Source of the DNA: an uncultured Kiloniellaceae bacterium
GTDB taxonomy: Bacteria; Pseudomonadota; Alphaproteobacteria; Kiloniellales; Kiloniellaceae
Assembly: GCA_947493695.1 (NCBI GenBank)
Contig: CANLSF010000003.1
Coordinates: 372,001 to 436,000, forward strand
Direction: 5' to 3'
Length of the DNA: 64,000 nt
The notes under the pieces were generated by a model, which saw nothing but the letters and a program-made list of their open reading frames with translations, did no database searches and had not been told where the DNA came from. Each line of letters begins with the position of its first letter. Positions within the stretch are counted from its first letter, which is position 1. Positions 30,315 to 43,121 of this stretch are shown here, one piece after another. The position numbers and the translations under genes are program-made.

Positions 30315-31361
30315 TCACGCGCTTTCGAAACCCGTCAGAGCATTCACAACGTTGATCCCGATCTGCGCGACAGCATAACCACCTTCCATGACAAAGAGTG
30401 TGGGTATCGGCGCGGCCTTCATCGCCGCGCCGATCCGCGCGCCATAATCACTGAAGTCATCGCTTTTTAGTTTGAAAAAGCTGATGGGGTCTTCCTCGAA
30501 GGTATCTACACCGAGAGATACGACCAGAAGGCCAGGCCGGAACTTTGCGATCCGTTCAAGCGCTTCGTCGAGGGCATCGCGCCAACGCAGATAATCAGTT
30601 CCGGGCGGCAGCGGAAAGTTGATGTTGAATCCCTCTCCTGCATCCTCGCCAAATTCATCGGCATGTCCCAGGAAGTGCGGAAAAGCATCCATGGGATCGC
30701 CGTGCAGAGACGCAAAGAAGACATCGTCCCGGCGATAGAAGATGTTCTGCGTTCCGTTCCCGTGATGGAAATCCACATCCAAAACGGCAACACGTTCGAT
30801 CCCCTGATCCCGGGCGAACTGCGCGGCGATGGCCGCGTTGTTCAGAAAGCAATAGCCGCCGTATTGATCCGCCGCGGCATGGTGTCCCGGTGGCCTGCTC
30901 AACGCAAAGGACGCAGTGTCTGTACCGGCAAGCAGTTGTTCCGTTGCCGTCAACACCACGTCGGCCCCCGCTCGGGCGGCCTCCCAGGTGCCATCGGAAA
31001 TCGAGGTTTCGCCCGCCAGGGCGTAATATCCGAGCTTGCCGTCGATATTGCGCGGGATTCGCTTGCCGTTCATGGCACGCGTAGGCCAGACATTGGGTAA
31101 GGCCTCGCCTTCTCCGCCCGCAGCCACCCAGTCTTCCCAGCAATTCTCCAGAAACCGCACAAAGTCAGGATCATGCACCTTGAGCACCGGCGCCAGTCCG
31201 AAATCTTTTGGAGCAATGACCTCGCCCAGGCCCTCCTGTCGCACACGTGCCAGTACGATCTCGGCCCGCTCCGGACATTCAAAAGGCCGCACGAAGGTGC
31301 CGCCGTGCAGTTCGGTCTTGGCATCACGCAGGCGGTGTTTTTCAGAATAAACAGTCAGCAT
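30315..31361 (-). CDS. Histone-deacetylase-like acetylpolyamine amidohydrolase
   Basis: A 348-residue zinc hydrolase of the arginase/deacetylase fold. The active site is evident: Arg-Pro-Pro-Gly-His-His-Ala (about 155-161), zinc ligands in Asp-Val-Asp-Phe-His-His-Gly-Asn-Gly (about 194-202) and the late Asp of Leu-Gly-Val-Asp-Thr-Phe (about 284-289). Family members deacetylate acetylated polyamines or small acetyl-amides and in bacteria rarely act on proteins. Length and the N-terminal Glu-Lys-His motif fit the acetylpolyamine branch. It stands alone upstream of the ECF sigma unit. Confidence 0.88.
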   Translation of the reverse strand: MLTVYSEKHRLRDAKTELHGGTFVRPFECPERAEIVLARVRQEGLGEVIAPKDFGLAPVLKVHDPDFVRFLENCWEDWVAAGGEGEALPNVWPTRAMNGKRIPRNIDGKLGYYALAGETSISDGTWEAARAGADVVLTATEQLLAGTDTASFALSRPPGHHAAADQYGGYCFLNNAAIAAQFARDQGIERVAVLDVDFHHGNGTQNIFYRRDDVFFASLHGDPMDAFPHFLGHADEFGEDAGEGFNINFPLPPGTDYLRWRDALDEALERIAKFRPGLLVVSLGVDTFEEDPISFFKLKSDDFSDYGARIGAAMKAAPIPTLFVMEGGYAVAQIGINVVNALTGFESA

Positions 31362-31440
31362 GGCAGTAACTCTCGAGGACTTTCAATTAGGGAGCTCTGG
31401 GCTAGTTTCATGTATACCTAGCTGTTTTGTCTGACACTTT

Positions 31441-31746
31441 TCACCCCTTACGTGCAGCCAGTACCGCTGCCACCAGATCTTCCGGCACGCTCTCCGGCAG
31501 GGCCGTTTCCTCGCTCGTCATCGTCGCCTTGGTCAGTTCCATCGAAGCCTCATAAGCTTTCAGGTACTCCCGGCATTCACGGCAGACACTCAGATGCATC
31601 TTGAAAATCGCGCGCTCCCTGCTGGAAAGTTCATCTTCCAGGTAGGCCAGGATGAAGTCCTCGAACTCGTTGCAGGTAATCATCAGCGGCAGCTTAAACA
31701 TCACGCCGTGGATCCGCCGTTTGATGGTCTTCTTAGACGCAGTCAT
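31441..31746 (-). CDS. Zinc-finger anti-sigma factor (zf-HC2 type)
   Basis: A 101-residue protein with the putative zinc-finger His-Leu-Ser-Val-Cys-Arg-Glu-Cys (about 51-58), a preceding Cys (about 25) and an amphipathic helix, the usual core that clamps an ECF sigma factor. It has no membrane segment, so it is soluble, which is common for redox- or stress-sensing members. Its ATG overlaps the sigma stop codon in ATGA; the two are translationally coupled. Confidence 0.82.
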   Translation of the reverse strand: MTASKKTIKRRIHGVMFKLPLMITCNEFEDFILAYLEDELSSRERAIFKMHLSVCRECREYLKAYEASMELTKATMTSEETALPESVPEDLVAAVLAARKG

Positions 31747-32504
31747 AGCTCTTGCCCTCTGATAAGCGGTTCCAGAAGCTTTTTCAGCGCCGCCCTGGCG
31801 CGATGTAACCGTACTTTGACATTGGTCTCACTGAGGCCCAGCGCCTCGGCAACTTCGCTGGTGGCCATCTCCTCGATATCGCGCAGCACCAGGACAACAC
31901 GGTAACTGTCCGGAAGTTTCTCGATCAGTTCGGCAACTCGGTCCGTGGTCTGAGATTTCTGCAGCAGGCTTTCGGGGGTTTCGAAGCTGGCCCAAGGCGC
32001 TTCTATCCGGCAGCCGTTGTCATCGAAGACCGGCAGCAGCTCGTCGATGGACTCGTCTTTTTGAGGACGATTTTTACGAAAGATCGCCAAGGCTTCATTG
32101 ACGACGATCCGATGCATCCAGGTTTTCAGCGCCGCGCGGCCCTCGAAATTCTTGAGGCCTGCGAAAATACTGGCAAAGGCGTTTTGTACTGCATCCTCGG
32201 CATGACCAGCGTCGCGCAGAATGCGGCGCGCGACCGCCAGCATCCAGGAAATATGATCGCGCACAAAATTTGAGGACGCAGCCGGATCACCTGCGCGGAG
32301 CAAGGCGAGTTCATCACCTTTTTGAGGCTCTTCTTTCTCGGGAAGACTCGTGTTCACCACTGGCACACTTCGCTGCAAACTTGCCTCAAAATCCGCTCCG
32401 AAACCTGCCTCAAAGCGCTCAGAAGATGTATCAAACTTGAGCCTACGGCGTAACAGACGCAAAAACTTTCCGAAATACTGTAACCTAAATCCTGCTGGAT
32501 GCAT
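31743..32504 (-). CDS. ECF RNA polymerase sigma factor
   Basis: A 253-residue sigma factor. After a 70-residue basic and acidic N-terminal extension come region 2 (about 75-145, with Ala-Glu-Asp-Ala-Val-Gln-Asn-Ala-Phe-Ala) and region 4 (about 180-245, ending in the helix-turn-helix Ala-Thr-Ser-Glu-Val-Ala-Glu-Ala-Leu-Gly-Leu-Ser). The extension is longer than usual and might be over-called if translation starts at an internal codon; no good ribosome site precedes the ATG at 32504. It is paired with a zinc-finger anti-sigma factor just downstream. Confidence 0.85.
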   Translation of the reverse strand: MHPAGFRLQYFGKFLRLLRRRLKFDTSSERFEAGFGADFEASLQRSVPVVNTSLPEKEEPQKGDELALLRAGDPAASSNFVRDHISWMLAVARRILRDAGHAEDAVQNAFASIFAGLKNFEGRAALKTWMHRIVVNEALAIFRKNRPQKDESIDELLPVFDDNGCRIEAPWASFETPESLLQKSQTTDRVAELIEKLPDSYRVVLVLRDIEEMATSEVAEALGLSETNVKVRLHRARAALKKLLEPLIRGQEL

Positions 32505-32600
32505 CTGACTTAATGCGCGGCCGAGTATTTTGGCGGGTCCGATGCGTCGCGACCTGTTGAATTCGATTTGGCCGCAATTTTTGTGAGATTTCAGGTTTCC

Positions 32601-33851
32601 ATGGGCTTATTGCTTTTAACTCTCTTCATCGTCGGTTTCTGTATGGTCGCAAAGCGCTTGTCGTCGACCATCCTCACAGCGCCGATGGTCTTCATCGCCT
32701 TTGGGTTTCTGTTTTCCAAAACCGGCCTGCTACCCCACGAGGATGCCAAGGCCAGCTTGCATCTGGTCGCAGAAATCGCGTTGATCGTACTGTTGTTTCT
32801 GGATGCAGCGCAGATCGACCTCACCGCCTTGCGCGCCCGGCATGCATGGCCGCAACGCATGCTGATGGTCGGGCTGCCTCTGTCTATCCTATTGGGCAGT
32901 CTCGCCGCCTGGCCTTTTCTTGAGGCCTGGCCCATTTTTGCCGTCATCCTGGTCGCCGCCATCCTGGCGCCGACGGATGCCGCGCTGGGGCAGGCGGTGG
33001 TCACCAACCCGGTCGTGCCAGAGCGCACACGGCGCGCACTAACCGTCGAGAGTGGCCTCAACGACGGCCTTGCCCTTCCCATTGTCCTGTTGTTTGCCAG
33101 CCTCACAGCACAGGAAATGGGTCAGGAGGATAGAAACTGGCTGCTGTTCAGCGCACAGCAACTGCTGTTGGGTCCCCTTGTCGGCATCGCCATCGGTCTG
33201 ACGGGCGGGGCCGCGCTTATTGCGGCACAGAACCACAAGCTCACTTCGGATATCTATGAAGGCATAGCCGCGATTGCTTTGGCCGGCGCGGCCTATCTGG
33301 GTGCCGACGCAGTCGGTGGAAACGGGTTCATCGCGGCCTTTGTCGGTGGACTTTGCTTCGGCAACATTCTTAAGGGCCGGTGTAAGTTCGTCTACGAATT
33401 CACCGAGAGTGAGGGGCAGATCCTCACCTGGAGCGCTTTCTTCCTGCTCGGACTGGCGTTGGTGCCACAAGCAATCGAGCACCTCACGAGTCAGACTCTC
33501 GGGGTTATACTGGTCAGCCTCTTTCTGGTCCGCCCCCTGGCAATCTGGATCTCGTTGATCGGCAGTGACGCTGCACCGGTCACACGGCTTTTCTTCGGTT
33601 GGTTCGGGCCGCGCGGACTGGCGACCGCGCTTTTTGCCCTGTTGGTTGTTCCGACCATCGATCACGACTTTGCCGAACCAGTCCTGTTCCTGGCGGTCAA
33701 TGCCGTCTGGATCAGCGCTCTGCTGCACGGCGTGACGGCCATGCCCGCCGCAAAACTCTACGCGGCACGGATCCGCGCCCAAGGCGATTGTCCGGAGACC
33801 GAAGCAATCACCGGATCGGCGAAACCGCTGATCACGCATCACAGCTCTTAA
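32601..33851 (+). CDS. CPA1-type cation/proton antiporter
   Basis: About 416 residues with 12-13 hydrophobic helices. The ion-binding region Ala-Ala-Ile-Leu-Ala-Pro-Thr-Asp-Ala-Ala-Leu (about 129-139) and Glu-Ser-Gly-Leu-Asn-Asp-Gly (about 161-167) are the known motifs of sodium/proton exchangers; the middle Thr-Asp and Asn-Asp residues are expected to carry the ion. The start ATG at 32601 has only AGG as a ribosome site. The stop lies 28 bases before the Rieske/glutamate-synthase gene, so it heads a four-gene operon and may set pH or sodium for those enzymes. Confidence 0.88.
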   Translation: MGLLLLTLFIVGFCMVAKRLSSTILTAPMVFIAFGFLFSKTGLLPHEDAKASLHLVAEIALIVLLFLDAAQIDLTALRARHAWPQRMLMVGLPLSILLGSLAAWPFLEAWPIFAVILVAAILAPTDAALGQAVVTNPVVPERTRRALTVESGLNDGLALPIVLLFASLTAQEMGQEDRNWLLFSAQQLLLGPLVGIAIGLTGGAALIAAQNHKLTSDIYEGIAAIALAGAAYLGADAVGGNGFIAAFVGGLCFGNILKGRCKFVYEFTESEGQILTWSAFFLLGLALVPQAIEHLTSQTLGVILVSLFLVRPLAIWISLIGSDAAPVTRLFFGWFGPRGLATALFALLVVPTIDHDFAEPVLFLAVNAVWISALLHGVTAMPAAKLYAARIRAQGDCPETEAITGSAKPLITHHSS

Positions 33852-33879
33852 TGAATTGACAGCGGGAACAGGAAAACCA

Positions 33880-35490
33880 ATGAAAAAAGTCACTGTCGCG
33901 TCCTTGAAAGATCTCAAGGATCGCAAGCCGGCCTACGCGCTGGTCGGAGAAGTCGATCTGGTCGTCGTGCGGTTCGATGAAGAGGTTTCGGTCTTCTACG
34001 GTCGCTGCCTGCATCGCGGTGCGCTGATGTCCGATGGCTTTGTAAAGGACAACAACCTGATCTGCGGCGTTCACTATTGGGATTATCGGCTTGATGGCGG
34101 GGTCTCGGAGTACAACAATCAGGAAGCTCTGCCGAAGTTCGCGTCCTGGCTTGAAGATGACGACGTTCTGGTCGACGCCGACGAGATTTTCGCCTGGGCC
34201 AAAGAGAATCCGCAACCCTTTAACCGGGACGATTACCTGGGTCTCTATGCCGACACCAGCCACGGCACCGAAGAAGAACCCTACAACGGCCTCATTCAAC
34301 GTTACGCCAAAGAAGGACTCACCAAGACCGGCCATCATGGTCAGGTCGACGCCATGGGCGTACCACGGGCAGAGTTGCCCGACTGGGACGACATTCAAAT
34401 CCTGACCGCGCAATTGCATCGCATGCCTCTCCTCGACGAATACAGGGTGGGAACGGATGTGGTGATCGGCCCCAATGCCCAACGCCCCCTAACGCTGAAG
34501 ATTCCGCTTTTCGTTTCCGACATGAGCTTCGGAGCCCTTTCCGAACCGGCTAAGATCGCACTGGCCCTGGGCGCGGAGAAGGCAGGCACGGGCATCTGTT
34601 CTGGTGAGGGCGGTATGTTGCCCGAGGAACAGGAGGCCAATTCCCGCTATTTCTATGAGTTGGCATCCGCGCGTTTCGGCTTTGACTGGGACAAGCTCGG
34701 CAAGGTTCAGGCTTTTCACTTTAAAGGCGGACAAGGCGCGAAAACCGGGACCGGCGGCCACCTGCCCGGCCCTAAGGTCAAGGGTAAGATTGCCGCCGTA
34801 CGCGGTCTTGATGAAGGCCAGGCCGCCATCTCACCTTCGCGCTTTCCCGATTGGACCGACGTAAAGCAGATCCGCGATTTTGCAAATGAGGTCCGGAGCA
34901 GAACCGGCGGTATCCCGGTCGGCTATAAACTCTCTGCACAGCACATCGAAAAAGATATCGACGCCGCTTTGGATGTGGGCGTCGACTACATCATCCTGGA
35001 CGGACGCGGCGGCGGCACGGGCGCTGCACCGATCATCTTCCGCGACAACATCTCGGTGCCGACCATCCCTGCCCTCGCCCGGGCCCGGCGTCATCTGGAT
35101 AGGCTGGACCGCAGCGATGTCTCGCTGATCATCACCGGTGGACTGCGCAAACCCGCAGACTTCATCAAGGCCATGGCCCTGGGGGCGGACGCCATCGCGG
35201 TTTCCAACGCGGCGATGCAGGCCATCGGCTGTATCGCCATGCGCGCCTGCCACACCAACAACTGTCCGGTCGGCATCGCGACGCAAAAGCCACATCTGGT
35301 CAGCCGGCTGGTGATTGAGAAGTCAGCCGATCAATTGAAGAACTTCTTCGAAGCCTCGGTCGAATTGATGCAGGTGATGGCGCGGGCCTGCGGCCACGAC
35401 CACCTCTCTCAGTTTTCCATCGAGGATCTGACGACCTGGAAAAAGGAAATGTCAGAACTTTCCGCAGTTACCTACGGCGGCGTCGCATGA
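33880..35490 (+). CDS. Rieske domain fused to FMN/Fe-S glutamate-synthase-like enzyme
   Basis: A 536-residue protein. Residues 1-110 are a Rieske [2Fe-2S] domain: Cys-43/His-45 and Cys-62/His-65 supply the ligands (the second box is Cys-Gly-Val-His rather than Cys-Pro-Trp-His). Residues 150-520 are the FMN-binding domain of GltB-type glutamate synthases, with the substrate loop Phe-Lys-Gly-Gly-Gln-Gly-Ala-Lys and a 3Fe-4S cysteine set at about 451, 457 and 462. The glutaminase domain of true glutamate synthase is absent, so ammonia or another amine would have to be the nitrogen donor, if it is an amination at all. The ATG at 33880 has AGGA upstream. Function unknown; an electron-transfer-linked oxidoreductase is the safest reading. 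Confidence 0.82.
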   Translation: MKKVTVASLKDLKDRKPAYALVGEVDLVVVRFDEEVSVFYGRCLHRGALMSDGFVKDNNLICGVHYWDYRLDGGVSEYNNQEALPKFASWLEDDDVLVDADEIFAWAKENPQPFNRDDYLGLYADTSHGTEEEPYNGLIQRYAKEGLTKTGHHGQVDAMGVPRAELPDWDDIQILTAQLHRMPLLDEYRVGTDVVIGPNAQRPLTLKIPLFVSDMSFGALSEPAKIALALGAEKAGTGICSGEGGMLPEEQEANSRYFYELASARFGFDWDKLGKVQAFHFKGGQGAKTGTGGHLPGPKVKGKIAAVRGLDEGQAAISPSRFPDWTDVKQIRDFANEVRSRTGGIPVGYKLSAQHIEKDIDAALDVGVDYIILDGRGGGTGAAPIIFRDNISVPTIPALARARRHLDRLDRSDVSLIITGGLRKPADFIKAMALGADAIAVSNAAMQAIGCIAMRACHTNNCPVGIATQKPHLVSRLVIEKSADQLKNFFEASVELMQVMARACGHDHLSQFSIEDLTTWKKEMSELSAVTYGGVA

Positions 35491-35537
35491 CCATGACCGA
35501 GATCAAGACCAAGAGACTCAAAAGGAGCGAGAGATGA
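35487..35537 (+). CDS. 16-codon mini-ORF bridging two genes
   Basis: An ATG at 35487 overlaps the stop of the preceding gene (ATGA) and reads 16 codons to a TGA that overlaps the ATG of the next gene (ATGA at 35534). The peptide is basic, Lys/Arg-rich. Its last codons lie over the ribosome-binding site AAGGAG of the next gene. It is either a coupling device or chance. No peptide evidence exists. Confidence 0.3.
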   Translation: MTMTEIKTKRLKRSER

Positions 35538-37510
35538 CTGCAGAAAACCTGGATTGGATTTCGGTTGGACGGGTCGGCGACCTGCCCGAAGGCCGGGTCA
35601 AGACCGTAACCGCCCGCACTGTGTCGATCTGTCTTTCGCACTTCGACGGCCATTGGGCAGCCATGGACAACCGCTGTCCGCATCAGGGCGGCCCACTGGG
35701 CGAAGGCTCGATCGAACGGGGCACGGAAGGCCAATGCTGGATCCGCTGTCCCTGGCATGGCTGGGATTTCGACCCCCTGACGGGTGCGCCGCCAGGCGGG
35801 CACGAAGACAGCGGCCAGCAGCTTTATCCCGTTGAGATCCGTGAAGGCGAGATCTTCGTCGGACTGGAACCGGAGCCGGAACGCGCCCGCACAGTCACCG
35901 ACGTCGTCGCTGAAACGCTCGTCAACTGGGGTGTAAAACGCGTCTTCGGTATGGTCGGTCATTCCAACCTGGGCCTGGCCGACGCTATTCGCCTGCGTAC
36001 AGCGGCCGGAGAGATGAGCTTCGTCGGCGTGCGGCATGAGGGCGCGGCAGCCTTCGCCGCCTCGGCCTACGGCAAACTGACGGGTAAGCCCGCCGCCTGC
36101 CTGACAATTGCGGGTCCCGGTGCGACCAATCTGCTAACCGGCATGTGGGACGCCAAGGTCGACCGCGCACCGGTTCTGGCATTGACCGGACAGGTCCAGA
36201 CTCAGGTTTTCGGTCCGGGTGCCTTCCAGGATATCGACCTCAAATCGGCTTTCGAGGCCGTTTCCAAATTTTCGCAGCCGGTGCTGAGTAGCTCGAAACA
36301 CGCCGAATTGGCGTCACTCGCCTGCAAAACCGCCTTGTTGGAGCGCGATGTTGCGCATTTGGTCTTTCCGGACGATGTCCAGACATTGCCCAGCGATGCG
36401 CCAGCCGGCGGACCGACAGGACGGATGGGTGGCTCAAGCGTGGTACCTTCCAAAGAAGACCTGGATGCTGCGGCGGATTTGATCAATGCCGCCAAACGCC
36501 CGATCATCGTGATCGGGCATGGCGCGGTCGAGGCGCGTGACGCGGTCATCGCACTGGCGGAAAAGCTCGATGCGCCGGTGCTGACAACCTTCAAAGCCAA
36601 GGGACTCATACCCGACAATCATCCCAATGCCGGTGGCGTGCTCGGTCGTTCGGGGACACCCATCGCCAGCTGGTTCATGAACGAAGCGGATCTGATCATT
36701 GCTCTGGGATCCTCCTTCGCCAACCACACGGGTATCGAATCTTCCAAGCCAATCCTTCAAGTGGATTTCGACCGCATGCAGCTTGGCAAGTTCCATCCTG
36801 TAACCCTGCCGGTCTGGGGAGAAATCGGGGCTTTTTGCGCAGCGGTCAGCCCGCAGCTCAAGCGCCCGCCGGACGCAGATGACCAAATCTCAGAACTGGC
36901 CGAGCGCTGGATCATCTGGCGCATTGAAAAAAAGAGCCGGCTTGCCGAACAGCGCGGTGAAGGCATTCATTCCGCTGCCGTCTTCGACGCCCTCACCCGG
37001 CACTGTCCCGACGACGCGATCATCGCCTGCGACGTTGGCAACAACACCTATTCCTTCGGGCGTTACTTCGAAAGTCAGGGCCAGCGTGTGCTGATGTCCG
37101 GCTACCTGGGCTCAATCGGCTTCGGTTTCCCGGCGGCCATGGGCGCCTGGGCCGCGACCCAGGATTTCCCGGAGTACACCGGACGAAAAGTCGTCTCCAT
37201 CTCGGGCGATGGCGGCTTTGGTCAGTACCCGATGGATTTCACCACCGCGGTGAAGTACGGCATGAACATCACCCACATTCTGCTGAATAACAGCCAACTC
37301 GGAAAGATCTCGAAGGAACAGCGGGCCGGTGAATGGCCGGTTTGGGAAACTGACCTGCAGAACCCCTCCTTCTCGGCCTTTGCGCGTCTGTGCGGCGGAA
37401 AAGGCATTCGTGTCACCGACCCCGGGGAACTGGAGGAGGCCATTGCCAAGGCCCTGGCCTTCGAAGGCCCCGCGCTGGTCGAGATCATCACAGACCCGGA
37501 GCTGGTCTAA
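35534..37510 (+). CDS. Rieske domain fused to thiamine-diphosphate enzyme
   Basis: A 658-residue protein. Residues 1-110 are a Rieske domain (Cys-48, His-50, Cys-72, His-75, second box Cys-Pro-Trp-His). Residues 120-650 form the PYR, central and PP domains of the acetolactate-synthase/pyruvate-oxidase superfamily: the activating Glu is Glu-169 (Val-Arg-His-Glu-Gly-Ala), and the ThDP-binding motif Gly-Asp-Gly begins at 558 with Asn-Asn at 585-586. Such enzymes decarboxylate 2-oxo acids; a Rieske cluster attached to one is unusual and suggests that electrons from the ThDP intermediate leave by one-electron transfer. AAGGAG precedes the ATG. Substrate unknown. Confidence 0.85.
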   Translation: MTAENLDWISVGRVGDLPEGRVKTVTARTVSICLSHFDGHWAAMDNRCPHQGGPLGEGSIERGTEGQCWIRCPWHGWDFDPLTGAPPGGHEDSGQQLYPVEIREGEIFVGLEPEPERARTVTDVVAETLVNWGVKRVFGMVGHSNLGLADAIRLRTAAGEMSFVGVRHEGAAAFAASAYGKLTGKPAACLTIAGPGATNLLTGMWDAKVDRAPVLALTGQVQTQVFGPGAFQDIDLKSAFEAVSKFSQPVLSSSKHAELASLACKTALLERDVAHLVFPDDVQTLPSDAPAGGPTGRMGGSSVVPSKEDLDAAADLINAAKRPIIVIGHGAVEARDAVIALAEKLDAPVLTTFKAKGLIPDNHPNAGGVLGRSGTPIASWFMNEADLIIALGSSFANHTGIESSKPILQVDFDRMQLGKFHPVTLPVWGEIGAFCAAVSPQLKRPPDADDQISELAERWIIWRIEKKSRLAEQRGEGIHSAAVFDALTRHCPDDAIIACDVGNNTYSFGRYFESQGQRVLMSGYLGSIGFGFPAAMGAWAATQDFPEYTGRKVVSISGDGGFGQYPMDFTTAVKYGMNITHILLNNSQLGKISKEQRAGEWPVWETDLQNPSFSAFARLCGGKGIRVTDPGELEEAIAKALAFEGPALVEIITDPELV

Positions 37511-37550
37511 CTAGCCCCCGCCATTGGAGCAATCCACAAGGAGTTTATTA

Positions 37551-38402
37551 ATGTCTTCCGATTCCGAACTTCGCAGCCGGGCACCAGCCGAGCTGCACGG
37601 TGCACGTGCAATCGCGCACAAAGCCGTCCAACTCGCCACCAAAGCAGCCCGCGCCAACCTTACGGCCGCCGCCGACGACAGTCATTCAAACCTGGGTTGG
37701 GACCCGGAAAACAAACGTTTTCTGTCACAACCCATCTCCAACAAAAACGGCACCTGGTATGTGGGCGTATCCCTGTCACCCCTGAGCGTCAGCGTCCTGC
37801 ACGAAACCGTCGCCGTTGAAACCCTGATGCTCGAGGGTCTCACCTATGCGCAAGCCATCGAGTGGCTGGATGCTCAGCTGCATGCCGCAGGGCTATCGCC
37901 TGCTTCGCAGGGTGTGATTCCCTACAAGATGCCGAGCGATGCAGATAAAATAACGAGCTTCCAATCAGGTAAGGAAGGCGCGGCGCTGCAGACACTCGCC
38001 GCCTGGTTCGACCTTGCCCATGGCGTCCTCGGCGACTTCGCTGCTGCGAATAGCGCCCTTAAGCCAGGGCCGAGTCCAGTTCGCTGCTGGCCGCACCATT
38101 TCGACATTGCCACCTACGTCGGTCTTGAAGGCGGCGATCTCGAAAGTGCACGGGGCATCGGGGTCGGCCTGTCGCCCGGCGACGAAAGCTACGAGCAGCC
38201 CTACGTCTACATCAATCCCTGGCCGCACCTTCCCAAGGATGACCTGCCGCCACTGCCCGCGCCCGGTCATTGGCATAGCGAAGGCTTTGTCGGCGCTATC
38301 GCAACCGGCGAAGAAATCCTCACGTTGGATAACGTTGAAGTGGGTTTGTCAGATTTCGTTACGGGTGCATTCAACATCGGCCGGAAGAAACTGGGTATGT
38401 AA
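37551..38402 (+). CDS. Unrecognised protein in the Rieske-enzyme operon
   Basis: A 283-residue soluble protein with no signal peptide. It starts at an ATG with a perfect AAGGAG seven bases ahead. Residues about 30-150 are helical and Ala-rich; residues 180-265 contain Cys-Trp-Pro-His-His-Phe-Asp (about 190-196) and Tyr-Val-Tyr-Ile-Asn-Pro-Trp-Pro (about 225-232) and a Gly-His-Trp-His block (about 247-250), which look like conserved metal- or cofactor-binding histidines. I cannot name a family; a faint likeness to DUF5996-type sequences is impression only. Its place directly after the ThDP gene suggests a shared pathway. Confidence 0.7.
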   Translation: MSSDSELRSRAPAELHGARAIAHKAVQLATKAARANLTAAADDSHSNLGWDPENKRFLSQPISNKNGTWYVGVSLSPLSVSVLHETVAVETLMLEGLTYAQAIEWLDAQLHAAGLSPASQGVIPYKMPSDADKITSFQSGKEGAALQTLAAWFDLAHGVLGDFAAANSALKPGPSPVRCWPHHFDIATYVGLEGGDLESARGIGVGLSPGDESYEQPYVYINPWPHLPKDDLPPLPAPGHWHSEGFVGAIATGEEILTLDNVEVGLSDFVTGAFNIGRKKLGM

Positions 38403-38411
38403 TCGGCTATG

Positions 38412-40229
38412 TCAGTGAGACACGGAAACCGGCGCCTTCGCAAGGGCAACGGACGCCTTTGAGCGCTCAGGGCGCGCGCCCGTGTCGGCGCGTTCGGTCG
38501 TCGCCGGATCCAAAGCCGCCAGGGCGTCATAATGGCTGAGATAAATGCGTCCGGCGTGAATGCAGAAAGACTGAGAGCGCCGGAGTTTGTCAGTGACCGG
38601 TCCTTTCACTTCTGCCAGATGGAGCGACACCTCCGCCACCTCCAGGCGCTCGATCAGGGCTTCCAAACTCTCCAGCGCGCTGGCATCAATCTCGTTCACC
38701 GCTGCGCAGTTCAGCACCACGTGACGGACCTTCGGATCTTCCATTGCCATGTCGTAGATCTTGTCTTCCAGCCAGCGGGAGTTGGCGAAGTACAAGCTCT
38801 CGTCGACTCGCAGGCTGAGAACTTCAGGACTGGTTACGACATCGTGTCGTTTCACGTTACGAAAGTGGTGGGTGCCCGGCACCTGTCCCAGCCGCGCGAA
38901 ATGCGGTCTGGCGGAGCGCGCCAGGAAGAGCACCAGAGACATAGCGACGCCAGCGATGATCCCGGCCTCGACCCCGAGCGTCCAGACGGTGAGGATCGTG
39001 GCCAGCATCGCCGCGAAATCCCGCTTGGAATAAACCCAGGTTCGTTTGATCGCGCCCAGATCGACCAGGGAAAGCACAGCCACCAGAATGGTTGCCGCCA
39101 GGGTCGCTTTTGGCAGTTGCTGAAACAGCGGCGTCAGCAACAAAGCCGTCAGCGCAATTCCGCCCGCCGTGAGAACACCGGCCAGAGGTGTGCGCGCACC
39201 TGCATCGAAGTTGACAACAGAGCGCGCGAAACCTCCGGTCACCGGGTAGCCGCCGCTAAAGGCGGACGCCACGTTCGCTGCACCCAACCCGACCAGCTCG
39301 CGGTCCGGCTGGATGCGTTCGCGCCGCTTGGCTGCCAGCGTCTGCGCAACGGAGACCGATTCCACAAAACCCACCACTGAGATCAGCAGTGCCGAGGGCA
39401 GCAGCGCCTGCCAGAGGTCCGGATCGAAGGGTGGAACCGCGATCGGCGGCAGGCCTTGAGGGATAACCCCGACGACCTTGACCCCGGCAGCATCAAGCGC
39501 AAGAAATTCGACCGCCAGGATCGTCGTGATCACAGCGGCTACAGGGCCACCCTTGGCAATGCTGTCCGCCAGACGCTCACCACAACCCAGGCGCTTCAGA
39601 AGCGGTTTGAGTTGGGACCGCACCCAAAAGAGAAAGATCGTCGCGACCGTACCAATCGCAAAGGTCGGCAGGCTGACTTCATCGAGATGATCCACCAGAG
39701 ACCGTGAAAGCTCGATCAGAGTGTGGCCCGAAGCATCAATTCCGAAAATGTGCTTGAGCTGACTCGCGGCAATCAGGATTCCCGACGCGGTGATAAAACC
39801 CGAAATCACCGGGTGGCTGAGCAGGCTGGCCAGAAAACCCAAACGCAACAAACCCAGAGCAATCAGCATCACGCCGGAAAGCAAGGCCAGCACCAGCGCT
39901 GCGCCCAGATACTCCGGCGATCCGACGGCGGCGAACTCTCCCACCGCTGCGGCGGTCATCAGGGAGACGACCGCGACCGGTCCAACCGCCAGAGCATTGG
40001 ACGACCCGAAGAGTGCGTAGCCGATCAGGGGCAATGCTGAAGCATAAAGGCCAACTTGAGGCGGCAATCCCGCAAGCAGGGCATAGGCCAGGCTCTGGGG
40101 GATTAGCATAATCGTGACGATGACCGCCGCCAGGGCATCGCTGCGAAAGAGCTCGCCATTGTATCGTCGCATCCAACCGACACAGGGCAGCACACGTTCG
40201 ATCCGGGACGTTGAAGCCGTTGCACTCAT
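38412..40229 (-). CDS. SulP-family anion transporter with STAS domain
   Basis: A 605-residue carrier: twelve to fourteen helices (about 20-420) including the family motif Pro-Gln-Ser-Leu-Ala-Tyr-Ala-Leu-Leu-Ala-Gly-Leu-Pro-Pro (about 44-57), then a cytosolic STAS domain (about 455-560). SulP proteins move sulfate, bicarbonate or related anions with protons or sodium. It starts four bases after the SQR-fusion gene, so it is co-expressed with sulfide oxidation and probably handles sulfate, sulfite or another sulfur anion, import or export. Confidence 0.9.
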   Translation of the reverse strand: MSATASTSRIERVLPCVGWMRRYNGELFRSDALAAVIVTIMLIPQSLAYALLAGLPPQVGLYASALPLIGYALFGSSNALAVGPVAVVSLMTAAAVGEFAAVGSPEYLGAALVLALLSGVMLIALGLLRLGFLASLLSHPVISGFITASGILIAASQLKHIFGIDASGHTLIELSRSLVDHLDEVSLPTFAIGTVATIFLFWVRSQLKPLLKRLGCGERLADSIAKGGPVAAVITTILAVEFLALDAAGVKVVGVIPQGLPPIAVPPFDPDLWQALLPSALLISVVGFVESVSVAQTLAAKRRERIQPDRELVGLGAANVASAFSGGYPVTGGFARSVVNFDAGARTPLAGVLTAGGIALTALLLTPLFQQLPKATLAATILVAVLSLVDLGAIKRTWVYSKRDFAAMLATILTVWTLGVEAGIIAGVAMSLVLFLARSARPHFARLGQVPGTHHFRNVKRHDVVTSPEVLSLRVDESLYFANSRWLEDKIYDMAMEDPKVRHVVLNCAAVNEIDASALESLEALIERLEVAEVSLHLAEVKGPVTDKLRRSQSFCIHAGRIYLSHYDALAALDPATTERADTGARPERSKASVALAKAPVSVSH

Positions 40230-40233
40230 GTCA

Positions 40234-41916
40234 TCAGTTGACCACTTCCGGCTTGATCTTTTCGGGCTTGGCCAGCCATTCGCGCCCCTGGAGCATCGCC
40301 TGCCAGTAAACCGGCGGCAGGATCTTTTCCTTCAGCAGCCAGGCCAGATGACTGGGCTTCTTGCCGTTGATCAGCCAGCTCGGAAAGCTCGGCAGCAGCT
40401 TGCCGCCGTAGCCGAACTCCGCCAGTACGATCTTGCCGCGCTCCACAGTCAGAGGGCAGGACCCGTAACCGTCGTAGTGACCGACGTTAAAGCCCTTGCC
40501 CATATCCGCGAGCAGGTTTTGCGCCACCACCGGCGCCTGCTTGCGCGCCGCCGCCGCCGTCTTGGCATTGGGGGCATTCATCACGTCACCCAGGCTCCAG
40601 ACATTCTCGTAGGTCTTGTGGCGCAGAGTGTTCTGATCGACGTCGACCCACCCCGCGGCATCGGCAAGAGGCGAGACCCGGATGAAGTCGGGCGCGCACT
40701 GTGGCGGACAGACGTGGATCATGTCGAATTCGCGTTCGACAATTTCGCTCCCACCCTCAGTGTCGGTCTTCTTGAAACGCGCCGTCTTAGCGGGTCCGTC
40801 GATCGAAACCAGGTTGTGGGAGAACTGCAGATCAACGCCGTATTTCTTCACGTACTCCATCAAGGCTGGCACGTAGTCCTTGACCCCGAACAGCACGCCG
40901 CCGGCATTGTAGAAACCCACATCGATGTCATCGAGCACACCGCTGCGCGCCCAGTGATCGGCGGAGAGATACATGGCCTTTTGCGGTGCGCCGGCACACT
41001 TGATCGGCATGGGCGGCTGGGTGAAGAGCGCCCTGCCCCCGCGCAGAGACTGCACCAGCTCCCAGGTGTAGGGCGCGAGATCGAAGCGATAGTTGGAGGT
41101 CACGCCGTTCTTTCCAAGTGTATCCACCAGACCCTCGACCTTATGCCAGTCGAGTTTCAATCCGGGGCACACGACCAGTCGCTTGTACTCGATCAGGCGA
41201 CAGCCCTCCAACAGCACGGCATTGCGCTCCGGCTCGAAAGCGGCGACCGCCGCCTTGATCCAGTGCACCCTGTCCGGCAGAACCGAGGAAAGCGTACGGA
41301 CCGTCTGGTCAGCGCCGAAGACCCCGCCACCGACCAGCGTCCAACCGGGCTGATAGTAGTGGATGTCCGCAGGATCGATGACGGCGATCTCCAGGTCCGG
41401 TTCCCGTGCGAGCAAGGACGCAGCGACGGCAATTCCGGCCGACCCGGCACCGACGACCACAACCTCGAAACTCCCGTCAACAGCGTCGATCGGGGTTGCG
41501 CCCTTGTTGGCGATGCGCCGGACCACCCCGTGCATGTCGTACCCCGCATCCTTGGTCTTCTGAAGGATGTCCGAGAGCTTCACCTCGCCCTTGTGGCTAA
41601 GTGCCCAGAGCGTGACGGAACGCGTCCCGCTGCGGCAAAAAGCAAGAGCCGGCTTGGGTGCGGAAGCGAATAATTGCCTGAAGCTTTCTGCATCCTGATC
41701 ACTGACCTTGCCGCTTTCGACCGGAAGGTAGTAGCAGCTCAACCCTGCTTTCTTGGCTGCCTCTTCAATCTCCTTGAACAAAGGCTGGTCGTTGCCCTCA
41801 CCGTCCGGACGATTGCAGATGATGGCCCGAAAACCCGCGTCGGCAATATCGGGAATATCGGCGGCGGTGATTTGCGGTGAGACGGAGATATCGCGATCAA
41901 CGCGTTTGATTTCCAT
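40234..41916 (-). CDS. DUF442-sulfide:quinone oxidoreductase fusion
   Basis: A 560-residue protein. Residues 1-110 are a DUF442 domain with a Cys-Arg-Ser-Gly-Thr-Arg phosphatase/rhodanese-like loop (Cys-94 to Arg-99), thought to relay sulfur. Residues 145-545 are a type II SQR: FAD motif Gly-Ala-Gly-Ser-Ala-Gly (156-161), the Lys-Cys-Ala-Gly-Ala-Pro-Gln-Lys block with redox Cys-307, and further cysteines at 403 and 407. SQR oxidises sulfide to sulfane sulfur and reduces quinone at the inner membrane. The persulfide dioxygenase gene is upstream in the same operon. Confidence 0.92.
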   Translation of the reverse strand: MEIKRVDRDISVSPQITAADIPDIADAGFRAIICNRPDGEGNDQPLFKEIEEAAKKAGLSCYYLPVESGKVSDQDAESFRQLFASAPKPALAFCRSGTRSVTLWALSHKGEVKLSDILQKTKDAGYDMHGVVRRIANKGATPIDAVDGSFEVVVVGAGSAGIAVAASLLAREPDLEIAVIDPADIHYYQPGWTLVGGGVFGADQTVRTLSSVLPDRVHWIKAAVAAFEPERNAVLLEGCRLIEYKRLVVCPGLKLDWHKVEGLVDTLGKNGVTSNYRFDLAPYTWELVQSLRGGRALFTQPPMPIKCAGAPQKAMYLSADHWARSGVLDDIDVGFYNAGGVLFGVKDYVPALMEYVKKYGVDLQFSHNLVSIDGPAKTARFKKTDTEGGSEIVEREFDMIHVCPPQCAPDFIRVSPLADAAGWVDVDQNTLRHKTYENVWSLGDVMNAPNAKTAAAARKQAPVVAQNLLADMGKGFNVGHYDGYGSCPLTVERGKIVLAEFGYGGKLLPSFPSWLINGKKPSHLAWLLKEKILPPVYWQAMLQGREWLAKPEKIKPEVVN

Positions 41917-41967
41917 GGTTCGTTTCCTCTCGTTCCCGGCTTGTTTTATTTTTCTATTCCGACGGGC

Positions 41968-42828
41968 TTACAGCGCGTCGACCGGCAGTTTCAGATAGTG
42001 GACGCCATTGTCGTCAGCGGGCGGCAGCTCACCGGCGCGCATGTTGACCTGGACCGAAGGCAGGATGAGCTGCGGCATGGAAAGCTGCTTGTCCCGCGTC
42101 GAGCGCATCTCGACGAAGTCGTCTTCGCTGACGCCGTTGTGCACATGAATGTTCTCCGCACGCTCGGCGGCAACCGTCGTTTCCCAGAGATACTCACGCC
42201 CGCCAGGTGCATAGTCATGGCATAGGAACAAGCGTGTTTCAGGCGGCAGGGTCAGGATCTTCCTGATCGAGCGGAAGAGCACACGGGCGTCACCGCCGGG
42301 AAAGTCGCAACGCGCAGTTCCGAAATCCGGCATGAAAAGCGTATCGCCGACAAAGGCGGCATCGCCGATCAGGTATGTTGCGCAGGCGGGCGTATGCCCG
42401 GGCGTGTGCATGACACTTGCCTGTAGTTCACCGATGAAAAAGACCTCTTCGTCCGCGAAAAGCTTGTCGAACTGACGGCCATCCACAGCAAACTGCTCTT
42501 CGGCATTGAAAACGGACTTGAAAACGCCCTGCACAGCCTGAATCTGTGATCCGATCCCGATTTTCCCGCCGAGTTCCTGCTTCAGATATGGCGCAGCGGT
42601 CAGATGATCGGCATGAACGTGGGTCTCCAGAATCCACTCGACCTCGAGACCTTCGGCCCTGATGTATGAAATCACTTCGTCCGCCGACTCTGTCGAGGTC
42701 CGGCCTGATTTCGGATCGAAATCCTTGACGGAGTCAATGATCGCGGCGTGACCTGTCTTAGGATCGTTGACCACGTGGGTTGCGGTGCTGGTCGCTTCGT
42801 CAAAGAAGCTTTTCACCTTTGGCTGCAT
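41968..42828 (-). CDS. Persulfide dioxygenase-like MBL-fold protein
   Basis: A 286-residue metallo-beta-lactamase-fold protein of the ETHE1/Blh type, which use iron to oxidise glutathione persulfide to sulfite. The metal motif Thr-His-Val-His-Ala-Asp-His-Leu-Thr-Ala-Ala (about 68-78) is intact, as is His in Met-His-Thr-Pro-Gly-His-Thr-Pro (about 129-136). A strong GGAGGAG site precedes the ATG at 42828. It stands 51 bases before the SQR fusion, giving a sulfide to persulfide to sulfite pathway. Confidence 0.9.
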   Translation of the reverse strand: MQPKVKSFFDEATSTATHVVNDPKTGHAAIIDSVKDFDPKSGRTSTESADEVISYIRAEGLEVEWILETHVHADHLTAAPYLKQELGGKIGIGSQIQAVQGVFKSVFNAEEQFAVDGRQFDKLFADEEVFFIGELQASVMHTPGHTPACATYLIGDAAFVGDTLFMPDFGTARCDFPGGDARVLFRSIRKILTLPPETRLFLCHDYAPGGREYLWETTVAAERAENIHVHNGVSEDDFVEMRSTRDKQLSMPQLILPSVQVNMRAGELPPADDNGVHYLKLPVDAL

Positions 42829-42932
42829 AGAGTTCTCCTCCGGATGCGGCCGCAGCCTTAACTGCGTCACGAGCAGCTAAGAAATGCGGCCGTTTATTGT
42901 TTTTCTTCGATGCGCAGGTTACGGCCGTTGCG

Positions 42933-43121
42933 CTATGCCTTCTTCAGACTGCAGATGCCGAGCAAGCGGTAAATTGGGCAGAATTTAATGAAGCCGGTGG
43001 CCAGAGGAATGATGCCGACAAAACCCCAGACGTAGGTGGAATCCCAAAGGGCAAGCGCGATGAGAGCCGCGCCCACGATGATACGCAGCATGCGGTCCAG
43101 TGCGCCGATGTTTGCAGACAT
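42933..43121 (-). CDS. DUF2892 small membrane protein
   Basis: A 62-residue protein with two hydrophobic helices (about 11-29 and 31-46) and the family pattern Asn-Ile-Gly-Ala-Leu-Asp-Arg-Met-Leu-Arg (about 4-13), Cys-Pro-Ile-Tyr near 48-51 and a final Cys. DUF2892 domains also occur as the C-terminal part of the rhodanese YgaP. It is the first gene of the sulfide operon, preceded by AGGAG, and divergent from the Crp-like gene. Confidence 0.85.
   Translation of the reverse strand: MSANIGALDRMLRIIVGAALIALALWDSTYVWGFVGIIPLATGFIKFCPIYRLLGICSLKKA

Follow-up and report, generated by a model that had tools for sequence, protein, structure and literature searches.

A conserved pair of Rieske-fused enzymes that may form an iron-sulfur-wired redox system in an uncultured Kiloniellaceae bacterium

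In a 64,000-nt stretch of the genome of an uncultured Kiloniellaceae bacterium (GCA_947493695.1, contig CANLSF010000003.1, positions 372,001-436,000; hereafter the window, to which all coordinates refer), we examined an operon in which two enzymes encoded back to back each carry an N-terminal Rieske domain, a [2Fe-2S] module familiar chiefly from the bc1/b6f complexes and from aromatic oxygenases. The first enzyme, here called GLT, joins the Rieske domain to a glutamate-synthase core, and the second, R-ThDP, joins it to a thiamine diphosphate (ThDP) enzyme. The pair recurs in other genomes, and iron-sulfur domains of other kinds are found at the N-termini of relatives of both enzymes. We tentatively read the operon as an iron-sulfur-wired redox pair, in which electrons from decarboxylation by R-ThDP might pass into GLT directly or via a shared carrier, a reading that we regard as quite possible rather than probable.

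The operon comprises four genes, all on the + strand and separated by gaps of 28, 43 and 13 bp: a cation/proton antiporter (32601-33851; PF00999, 5e-31), GLT (33880-35490, 536 aa; PF01645, 2.3e-88, and PF00355), R-ThDP (35534-37510, 658 aa; three TPP domains and PF00355) and a 292-aa protein (37524-38402). This is the arrangement given in a first-pass annotation of the sequence, with the two Rieske fusions back to back and an antiporter ahead. TTG codons at 32568 and 33856 are possible alternative starts for the antiporter and GLT, respectively, and the antiporter scores 129.8 bits against PRK05326, under the cut-off of 355. The Rieske domains of GLT (33880-34194; residues 4-87, 1.5e-13) and R-ThDP (35534-35869; residues 8-85, 7.8e-16) both pass the Pfam gathering cut-off of 20.3, with 50.9 and 58.2 bits, and are among 12 matches to PF00355 in the whole genome (6.46 Mb in 20 contigs).

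Each protein has all four Rieske ligands (C43, H45, C62 and H65 in GLT; C48, H50, C72 and H75 in R-ThDP). To assess residue conservation, we used full-length GLT from 67 of 97 loci examined and R-ThDP from 96 of 96, with the window added to give 68 and 97 sequences; alignment over 95% of the query was required, and a small number of the sequences are from identical or near-identical genomes. The four ligands and the 3Fe-4S cysteines C451, C457 and C462 (35230-35265), which align with the GltS cysteines, were invariant in 68/68 GLT sequences, as were the four ligands, Glu169 and Asp559 in 97/97 R-ThDP sequences, so that the Rieske ligands, catalytic Glu, ThDP motif and 3Fe-4S cysteines picked out in the first-pass annotation are all upheld. 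Rieske domains include a low-potential oxygenase/ferredoxin type and a bc1 type. With the ligand patterns CPHQGG...CPWHGW and CLHRGA...CGVHYW in the two enzymes, and a Cys pair at the bc1-type positions in neither, both domains look like the low-potential type.

R-ThDP contains TPP N, M and C domains, the central one matching PF00205. The protein had been described as acetolactate-synthase-like. The assignment as a ThDP enzyme holds, but the bit scores place it nearer pyruvate oxidase/PoxB (PRK08611, 393.4 bits) than acetolactate synthase (TIGR00118, 285.6 bits), and we dropped the acetolactate synthase identity in favor of a PoxB-like relation. All scores fall below the NCBIfam equivalog cut-offs (393.4 versus 742 for PRK08611, 315.8 versus 792 for PRK09124 and 285.6 versus 538.35 for TIGR00118). 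The best match in the PDB is Escherichia coli PoxB (3eya/3ey9), a pyruvate:ubiquinone oxidoreductase, for which residues 3-528 align with residues 119-654 of R-ThDP (E 1e-70), including the shared catalytic Glu. R-ThDP differs from PoxB in the added N-terminal Rieske domain and at the other end of the protein, where the alignment stops at residue 528 of 572 in PoxB and R-ThDP itself ends four residues later, leaving it without the last 44 residues of PoxB, which we take to be the membrane-binding segment. Invariant H143, K591 and E595 of R-ThDP, positions that we assume lie at the ThDP site, correspond by alignment to Asp, Phe and Glu in PoxB.

For GLT, Pfam showed the Rieske and Glu_synthase regions only, with no match to a glutaminase (Ntn amidotransferase) domain, as the first-pass annotation had it. 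Compared with glutamate synthase, including the ferredoxin-dependent form (PDB 7mfm, 1ea0 and 1llw), GLT appears from the alignments to retain the flavin mononucleotide (FMN) barrel and the three 3Fe-4S cysteines, while the glutaminase domain is gone, the Rieske domain has been added and the signature loop is altered. This loop, QGAKPGEGGQLPG in glutamate synthase and presumably near the 2-oxoglutarate site, is QGAKTGTGGHLPG in GLT (P, E and Q changed to T, T and H), with T289 and H294 found in 68/68 sequences and T291 in 67/68. K288 and R308, which we take to be the Lys and Arg among the 2-oxoglutarate contacts of ferredoxin-dependent GltS, are retained by alignment and conservation. GLT scores 131.9 bits against the GltS NCBIfam equivalog cut-off of 1047. 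Given the altered loop, GLT probably reduces a substrate other than 2-iminoglutarate, and the flavin-driven amination proposed initially is doubtful.

To examine how far the pair is conserved, genome contigs were scanned with a five-row R-ThDP alignment, and the best 80 of at least 478 confirmed relatives, a set that leans to near relatives, were inspected for neighbors up to 10 kb on each side. In these 80 loci, R-ThDP is 68-81% identical over the best segment, with matches running from query residues 1-8 to 657-658, and the hosts are alpha- and some gammaproteobacteria, largely marine by name. A GLT core was found within 10 kb in 57/80 loci (two cut by a contig end and four of the CDGSH type described below), in 54 cases on the same strand. 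GLT is directly adjacent (≤60 bp) to R-ThDP in 31/80 loci and lies ~2.5 kb away in 18/80, with the genes for the proteins C2 and C3 (see below) and small membrane proteins in between, while the antiporter is present in 29/80. Of the 23 loci without GLT in reach, 14 run into a contig end less than 10 kb away on one or both sides, and nine have the full 10 kb on both.

The association was also seen in samples of genomes from the same class and phylum, many of them incomplete, which were searched with profiles (up to four candidates per genome, limits of 1e-150 and 1e-120, absence meaning no candidate at the limit). Among 289 genomes of the class, R-ThDP was detected in 13, Rieske-GLT in eight and both in seven (Fisher test, 4e-10, not corrected for relatedness); the sole genome with Rieske-GLT and no R-ThDP, G074, is 67% complete. 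The two genes are at most 2.5 kb apart in three of the seven genomes with both (the window, G096 and G252). In the phylum sample of 299 genomes, all five genomes with R-ThDP have Rieske-GLT at ~2.5 kb or nearer; the Fisher test for this sample pooled two broken Rieske-GLT genes with ten full ones. Chance adjacency was rejected on the locus counts and the Fisher test. Three haloarchaeal plasmids with Rieske-GLT all carry R-ThDP as well (59-64% identity), at a distance of 1.4 kb on one, with an annotated antiporter in between on another and 17 kb apart on the third, and the records name the proteins just "thiamine pyrophosphate-binding protein" and "glutamate synthase-related protein". R-ThDP is also found on one Haloferax and one Mycobacteroides plasmid, with no Rieske-GLT annotated or listed near it. 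The linkage, conserved across classes and in haloarchaea, indicates that the pairing is not accidental, and adjacency, which had been set beforehand as a test, is thus conserved, though not in every genome with both genes.

The iron-sulfur domains at the N-termini of both enzymes are exchangeable. In Vibrio fortis and L107 (L- and G-numbers denote our loci and genomes), Pfam revealed a double CDGSH domain in place of the Rieske domain on the GLT core, and we collected 34 such CDGSH-GLT rows, mostly by motif, with some genomes represented twice and Pfam run on two; in L074, L094 and L104, CDGSH-GLT adjoins R-ThDP. A homolog on a Monoglobus plasmid (L024, 5797-7224) has, as read by eye, a rubredoxin-like CxxC...CxxC segment before the glutamate-synthase core. 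On the R-ThDP side, five of the 13 proteins of the class sample are longer and carry extra iron-sulfur domains, with two CDGSH domains ahead of the Rieske domain in G001 and the order CDGSH-Fer4_19-CDGSH-Rieske-ThDP in G084, G130, G184 and G232. Proteins of the latter architecture, in which a single chain combines different kinds of redox part, lie in L187 (6491-9148), L189 (6093-8705), L190 (5558-8188) and L191 (6086-8716). Identity between the double CDGSH of G001 and its counterparts is 50-58% for three CDGSH-GLT proteins and 49-53% for two small stand-alone proteins encoded near GLT. For the Fer4_19/CDGSH string, the figure is 34-41% against two gammaproteobacterial stand-alone proteins that likewise lie near GLT. 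GLT was detected at threshold in none of the five class genomes with extended R-ThDP versus seven of the eight with plain R-ThDP (two-sided p 0.005, not corrected for relatedness).

In a quick tree of GLT, built without L126 and L154 (pieces of the window's own genome) and with manual addition of the rubredoxin row and three outgroup rows, we counted two changes between Rieske and CDGSH, or four when every label is considered; parts of the tree are weakly supported, and there are long branches. The well-supported branches force at least one change, and by this tree the Rieske/CDGSH swap on GLT happened at least once. Swapping of N-terminal iron-sulfur domains on both GLT and R-ThDP suggests that these domains serve as one common type of electron conduit, and we read them as likely pieces of a single electron wire, which either enzyme can carry as a fusion. 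More broadly, it is possible, if less than probable, that a ThDP 2-oxo acid dehydrogenase and a GltS-derived flavin reductase form a modular system in bacteria and haloarchaea, wired by interchangeable iron-sulfur parts (Rieske, double CDGSH, Fer4_19 and rubredoxin) that move between the enzymes, in which decarboxylation would drive electrophile reduction.

The domain combinations per se are not new; CDGSH with glutamate synthase, CDGSH with Fer4_19 and CDGSH with Rieske are already named in the retrieved passages of a survey (PMC5859297). What we add is the pairing and the movement of domains between the partners. The CDGSH-glutamate synthase proteins of that survey resemble GLT in the core (~67% identical in Vibrio) and in having [2Fe-2S] domains at the same end, but have CDGSH for Rieske, and its retrieved passages give neither a function nor a ThDP partner for them.

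A third Rieske protein is frequently encoded with the pair. C2, which combines a ferric-reductase-like membrane domain with a C-terminal Rieske domain, was found in 41/80 R-ThDP loci (counted at ≥250 bits, as lower matches fall on the Rieske domain of R-ThDP itself), always together with C3, for which no family was found. One example of C3 (L079, 8972-9733) has a Cys-rich motif and, by eye, a probable membrane anchor. The Rieske domain of R-ThDP is 36% identical to that of C2 versus 21% to that of GLT, and C2 could connect the pair with the quinone pool or act as the shared carrier. A ferric reductase and Rieske combination is also present in model M4 of the ferric-reductase-domain superfamily, as given in the part of the description consulted (PMC3591440), while C2 is only a linked partner in 41/80 relatives and is not in the window's own genome.

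Regulation was considered next to gene context. Divergent from the operon is a gene for an extracytoplasmic function (ECF) sigma factor (31743-32504, - strand; PF08281 and PF04542), followed by a gene for a putative zinc-finger (zf-HC2) anti-sigma factor (31441-31746, - strand; PF13490, 1.1e-9), relatives of which are near the operon in some loci. An ECF-type promoter element, TGTAACC-N15-GCATCT, is present at 32479-32506 (+ strand), with elements of the same kind in sigma-bearing relatives. The listed start of the sigma factor is probably too far upstream, given that the relative in L046 is 207 aa and that the listed gene overlaps the element. The element precedes the antiporter in the window, L043, L046, L051, L055, L058 and L120 (GCGTCT in L120), a CGTCT form one base nearer is ahead of R-ThDP in L122, and a weaker form was seen by eye in L105. 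Scanning 115 sequences (2.04 Mb), we found 11 matches compared with ~2 expected. In L123 the element precedes a neighboring transporter operon, and single matches lie elsewhere in L056 and L122. The gene following the element in L123 (1934-3182) and L056 (554-1816) is permease-like (MlaE-like by eye), and the ECF regulon may reach membrane lipids. The window's own genome has two exact matches, versus one for a reversed-pattern control; the second is antisense inside a transporter coding sequence and was taken as chance.

The window element resembles that of the Caulobacter sigma-F regulon (GTAACC-N16-CGAA), associated with heavy-metal stress, in the GTAACC part, the similar spacer and the ECF sigma factor, as far as the retrieved part of that paper goes (PMC3511200), but the second part is CGAA there and GCATCT or the like here. 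The word Rieske is absent from the text of the same paper. Going by the adjacent sigma and anti-sigma genes and the element shared with relatives, the operon is probably under the control of that ECF sigma factor, in the window subtype only.

We also looked at the neighbors of GLT in 25 loci (including L022 and L196, apparently the same Vibrio record), named by Pfam on L177 and joined in the other loci by sequence clusters. In seven of these (L177, L178, L202, L203, L205, L206 and L208), two or more stress-type genes lie alongside GLT: pirin (6), glutathione S-transferase (6), cytochrome b561 (5), YceI (5), a NemA-like old yellow enzyme, that is, an N-ethylmaleimide-reductase-like flavoenzyme (4), LysR (4) and nitroreductase (3). 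Small CDGSH proteins are also near GLT in some of these gammaproteobacterial loci, and MsrA is encoded directly 3´ of GLT in L177. The remaining 18 loci have no such shared gene set, and we found no account of the combination of pirin, YceI, cytochrome b561 and LysR in the open-access literature. The haloarchaeal neighbors include pirin, MerA-like, DsrE, peroxiredoxin and quinol-monooxygenase-like genes. By guilt by association, the ECF sigma factor, the promoter element and these neighbors suggest a role in electrophile or oxidant stress. Searches for other roles gave no Rfam match at gathering score in 31000-43000 for an RNA element and no PADLOC match for a defense function with the three proteins tried.

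Taking these observations together, we propose the following scheme. In the window subtype, the ECF sigma factor would switch on the operon under electrophile or oxidant stress. R-ThDP would oxidatively decarboxylate a 2-oxo acid in the manner of PoxB, with electrons leaving through its Rieske cluster, which would stand in for the C-terminal membrane-binding segment of PoxB. GLT would act as an FMN/3Fe-4S reductase, taking in electrons through its N-terminal [2Fe-2S] domain instead of from the GltD subunit or ferredoxin, and would reduce a small oxidized or electrophilic substrate (an imine, quinone or similar) rather than make glutamate. Electrons would cross between the enzymes via the [2Fe-2S] domains, either directly or through a shared carrier, which might be C2 in many relatives and CDGSH/Fer4_19 modules in others. 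Kef systems adjust cytoplasmic pH and K+ under electrophiles, and the antiporter could act in the same manner.

Several observations weigh against this scheme. Each enzyme is found alone: in the phylum sample, 35 of 40 genomes with GLT show no R-ThDP, and in the class sample, six of 13 genomes with R-ThDP show no GLT. Of the seven class genomes with both, two (G009 and G143) have them ~45 kb from each other, and in two more (G123 and G227) they lie on separate contigs. C2 and C3 are absent from the window's own genome, where four C2 matches cover the Rieske part only. In a tree of 45 of the 97 full-length sequences, every extended R-ThDP protein falls outside the main bacterial group, and the anticorrelation of these proteins with GLT may be phylogenetic. 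A window-like sigma gene is found in 9/80 loci, beside the module in seven only, most of the 115 scanned sequences lack the promoter element, and the stress-gene neighbors come from one gammaproteobacterial family (f177) and not from R-ThDP loci. In addition, the predicted model of GLT has a predicted local distance difference test (pLDDT) score of 72 and a predicted template modeling (pTM) score of 0.61, too weak for judging domain packing. Since each enzyme occurs alone, coupling is not obligate, and the patchy co-occurrence is better explained by a shared carrier than by obligate direct transfer. The electron exchange between the Rieske clusters that the first-pass annotation envisaged is plausible but unproven, favored by the recurring pair and the domain swapping, and its strictest form, obligate direct transfer, is not supported.

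The lone occurrences, and the distances where both genes are present, would also be expected if both enzymes answered the same stress with no mutual electron exchange, R-ThDP delivering to quinone or a ferredoxin and GLT being fed by another donor, each wired separately to a general pool. The greater similarity of the R-ThDP Rieske domain to C2 than to GLT points the same way. Separate wiring fits less well with close linkage spanning haloarchaea to alphaproteobacteria, with the presence of similar double-CDGSH modules on the two enzymes and with the lack of detected GLT where R-ThDP bears extra clusters, and we consider it somewhat unlikely. Alternatively, electrons from R-ThDP might feed a GLT that remains a glutamate synthase lacking the amidotransferase and using ammonia or an amine as donor. 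The preserved FMN/3Fe-4S core and cysteines are consistent with this, as are K288 and R308, the presumed 2-oxoglutarate contacts, but the signature loop is changed and nearly invariant, the score is far under the GltS equivalog cut-off, and the identified neighbors are stress genes rather than nitrogen genes, making this improbable. Finally, the N-terminal Rieske and CDGSH domains could be sensors, with cluster breakage or a redox change under oxidants switching the enzymes on or off. The anti-sigma/ECF and oxidant-type neighbors in part of the relatives and the exchangeability of the domain type would suit a sensor, but the rubredoxin-like and Fer4_19 alternatives have other types of center and the CDGSH-Fer4_19-CDGSH-Rieske strings look like conducting chains; we regard a sensor role as very improbable.

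On two old metabolic enzyme folds that recur together from alphaproteobacteria to haloarchaea, both Rieske and CDGSH domains look like interchangeable plugs. If electrons do run from R-ThDP to GLT, the operon would tie reduction to the decarboxylation of a 2-oxo acid in a new way, a testable function would follow for CDGSH-GltS proteins, of which Vibrio fortis has one, and CDGSH domains would serve metabolism as electron carriers. Each fold is known by itself, while the paired, plug-swapping arrangement was not found in the open-access literature, for which full texts are only partly covered. Within the same coverage, neither fusion turned up as a published part of a known enzyme, with no report joining a Rieske domain with pyruvate oxidase and thiamine or with an FMN-binding glutamate synthase; a search for Rieske with "thiamine pyrophosphate-binding protein" gave nothing related, as judged on title and start of abstract.

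The last protein of the operon, described initially as unrecognized, indeed has no Pfam family at E ≤ 1, PF19459 (DUF5996) included. Profile-profile comparison, however, linked it as a divergent relative to four DUF5996-type proteins (probability score 99.4, E 9e-22), with PF19459 detected in both of those scanned (L118 and L119). The matching DUF5996 proteins also adjoin R-ThDP in Woeseia and relatives, and seven of ten class genomes with the last protein have R-ThDP. AlphaFold2 gave a model with pLDDT 93, for which comparison with the PDB returned matches too weak to assign a fold (best Foldseek E 0.3; best Z 5.5 over 109 residues in a second alignment). Based on the invariant WPHH..D motif and H251, we speculate that the protein is perhaps a substrate-binding or hydrolytic accessory. 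A relative is encoded on an Acaryochloris plasmid (L023, 5986-6810), where its neighbors are genes for glucosidases, an FMN reductase and an NAD(P)H-hydrate epimerase.

Beyond the operon, the sulfur transferase and metallo-beta-lactamase (MBL) dioxygenase halves of the Blh family are split between 40234-41916 and 41968-42870 (both - strand), and a SulP transporter gene follows at 38412-40229 (- strand). The transferase half forms one protein with a relative of type III sulfide:quinone reductase, and the MBL half has a gene of its own.

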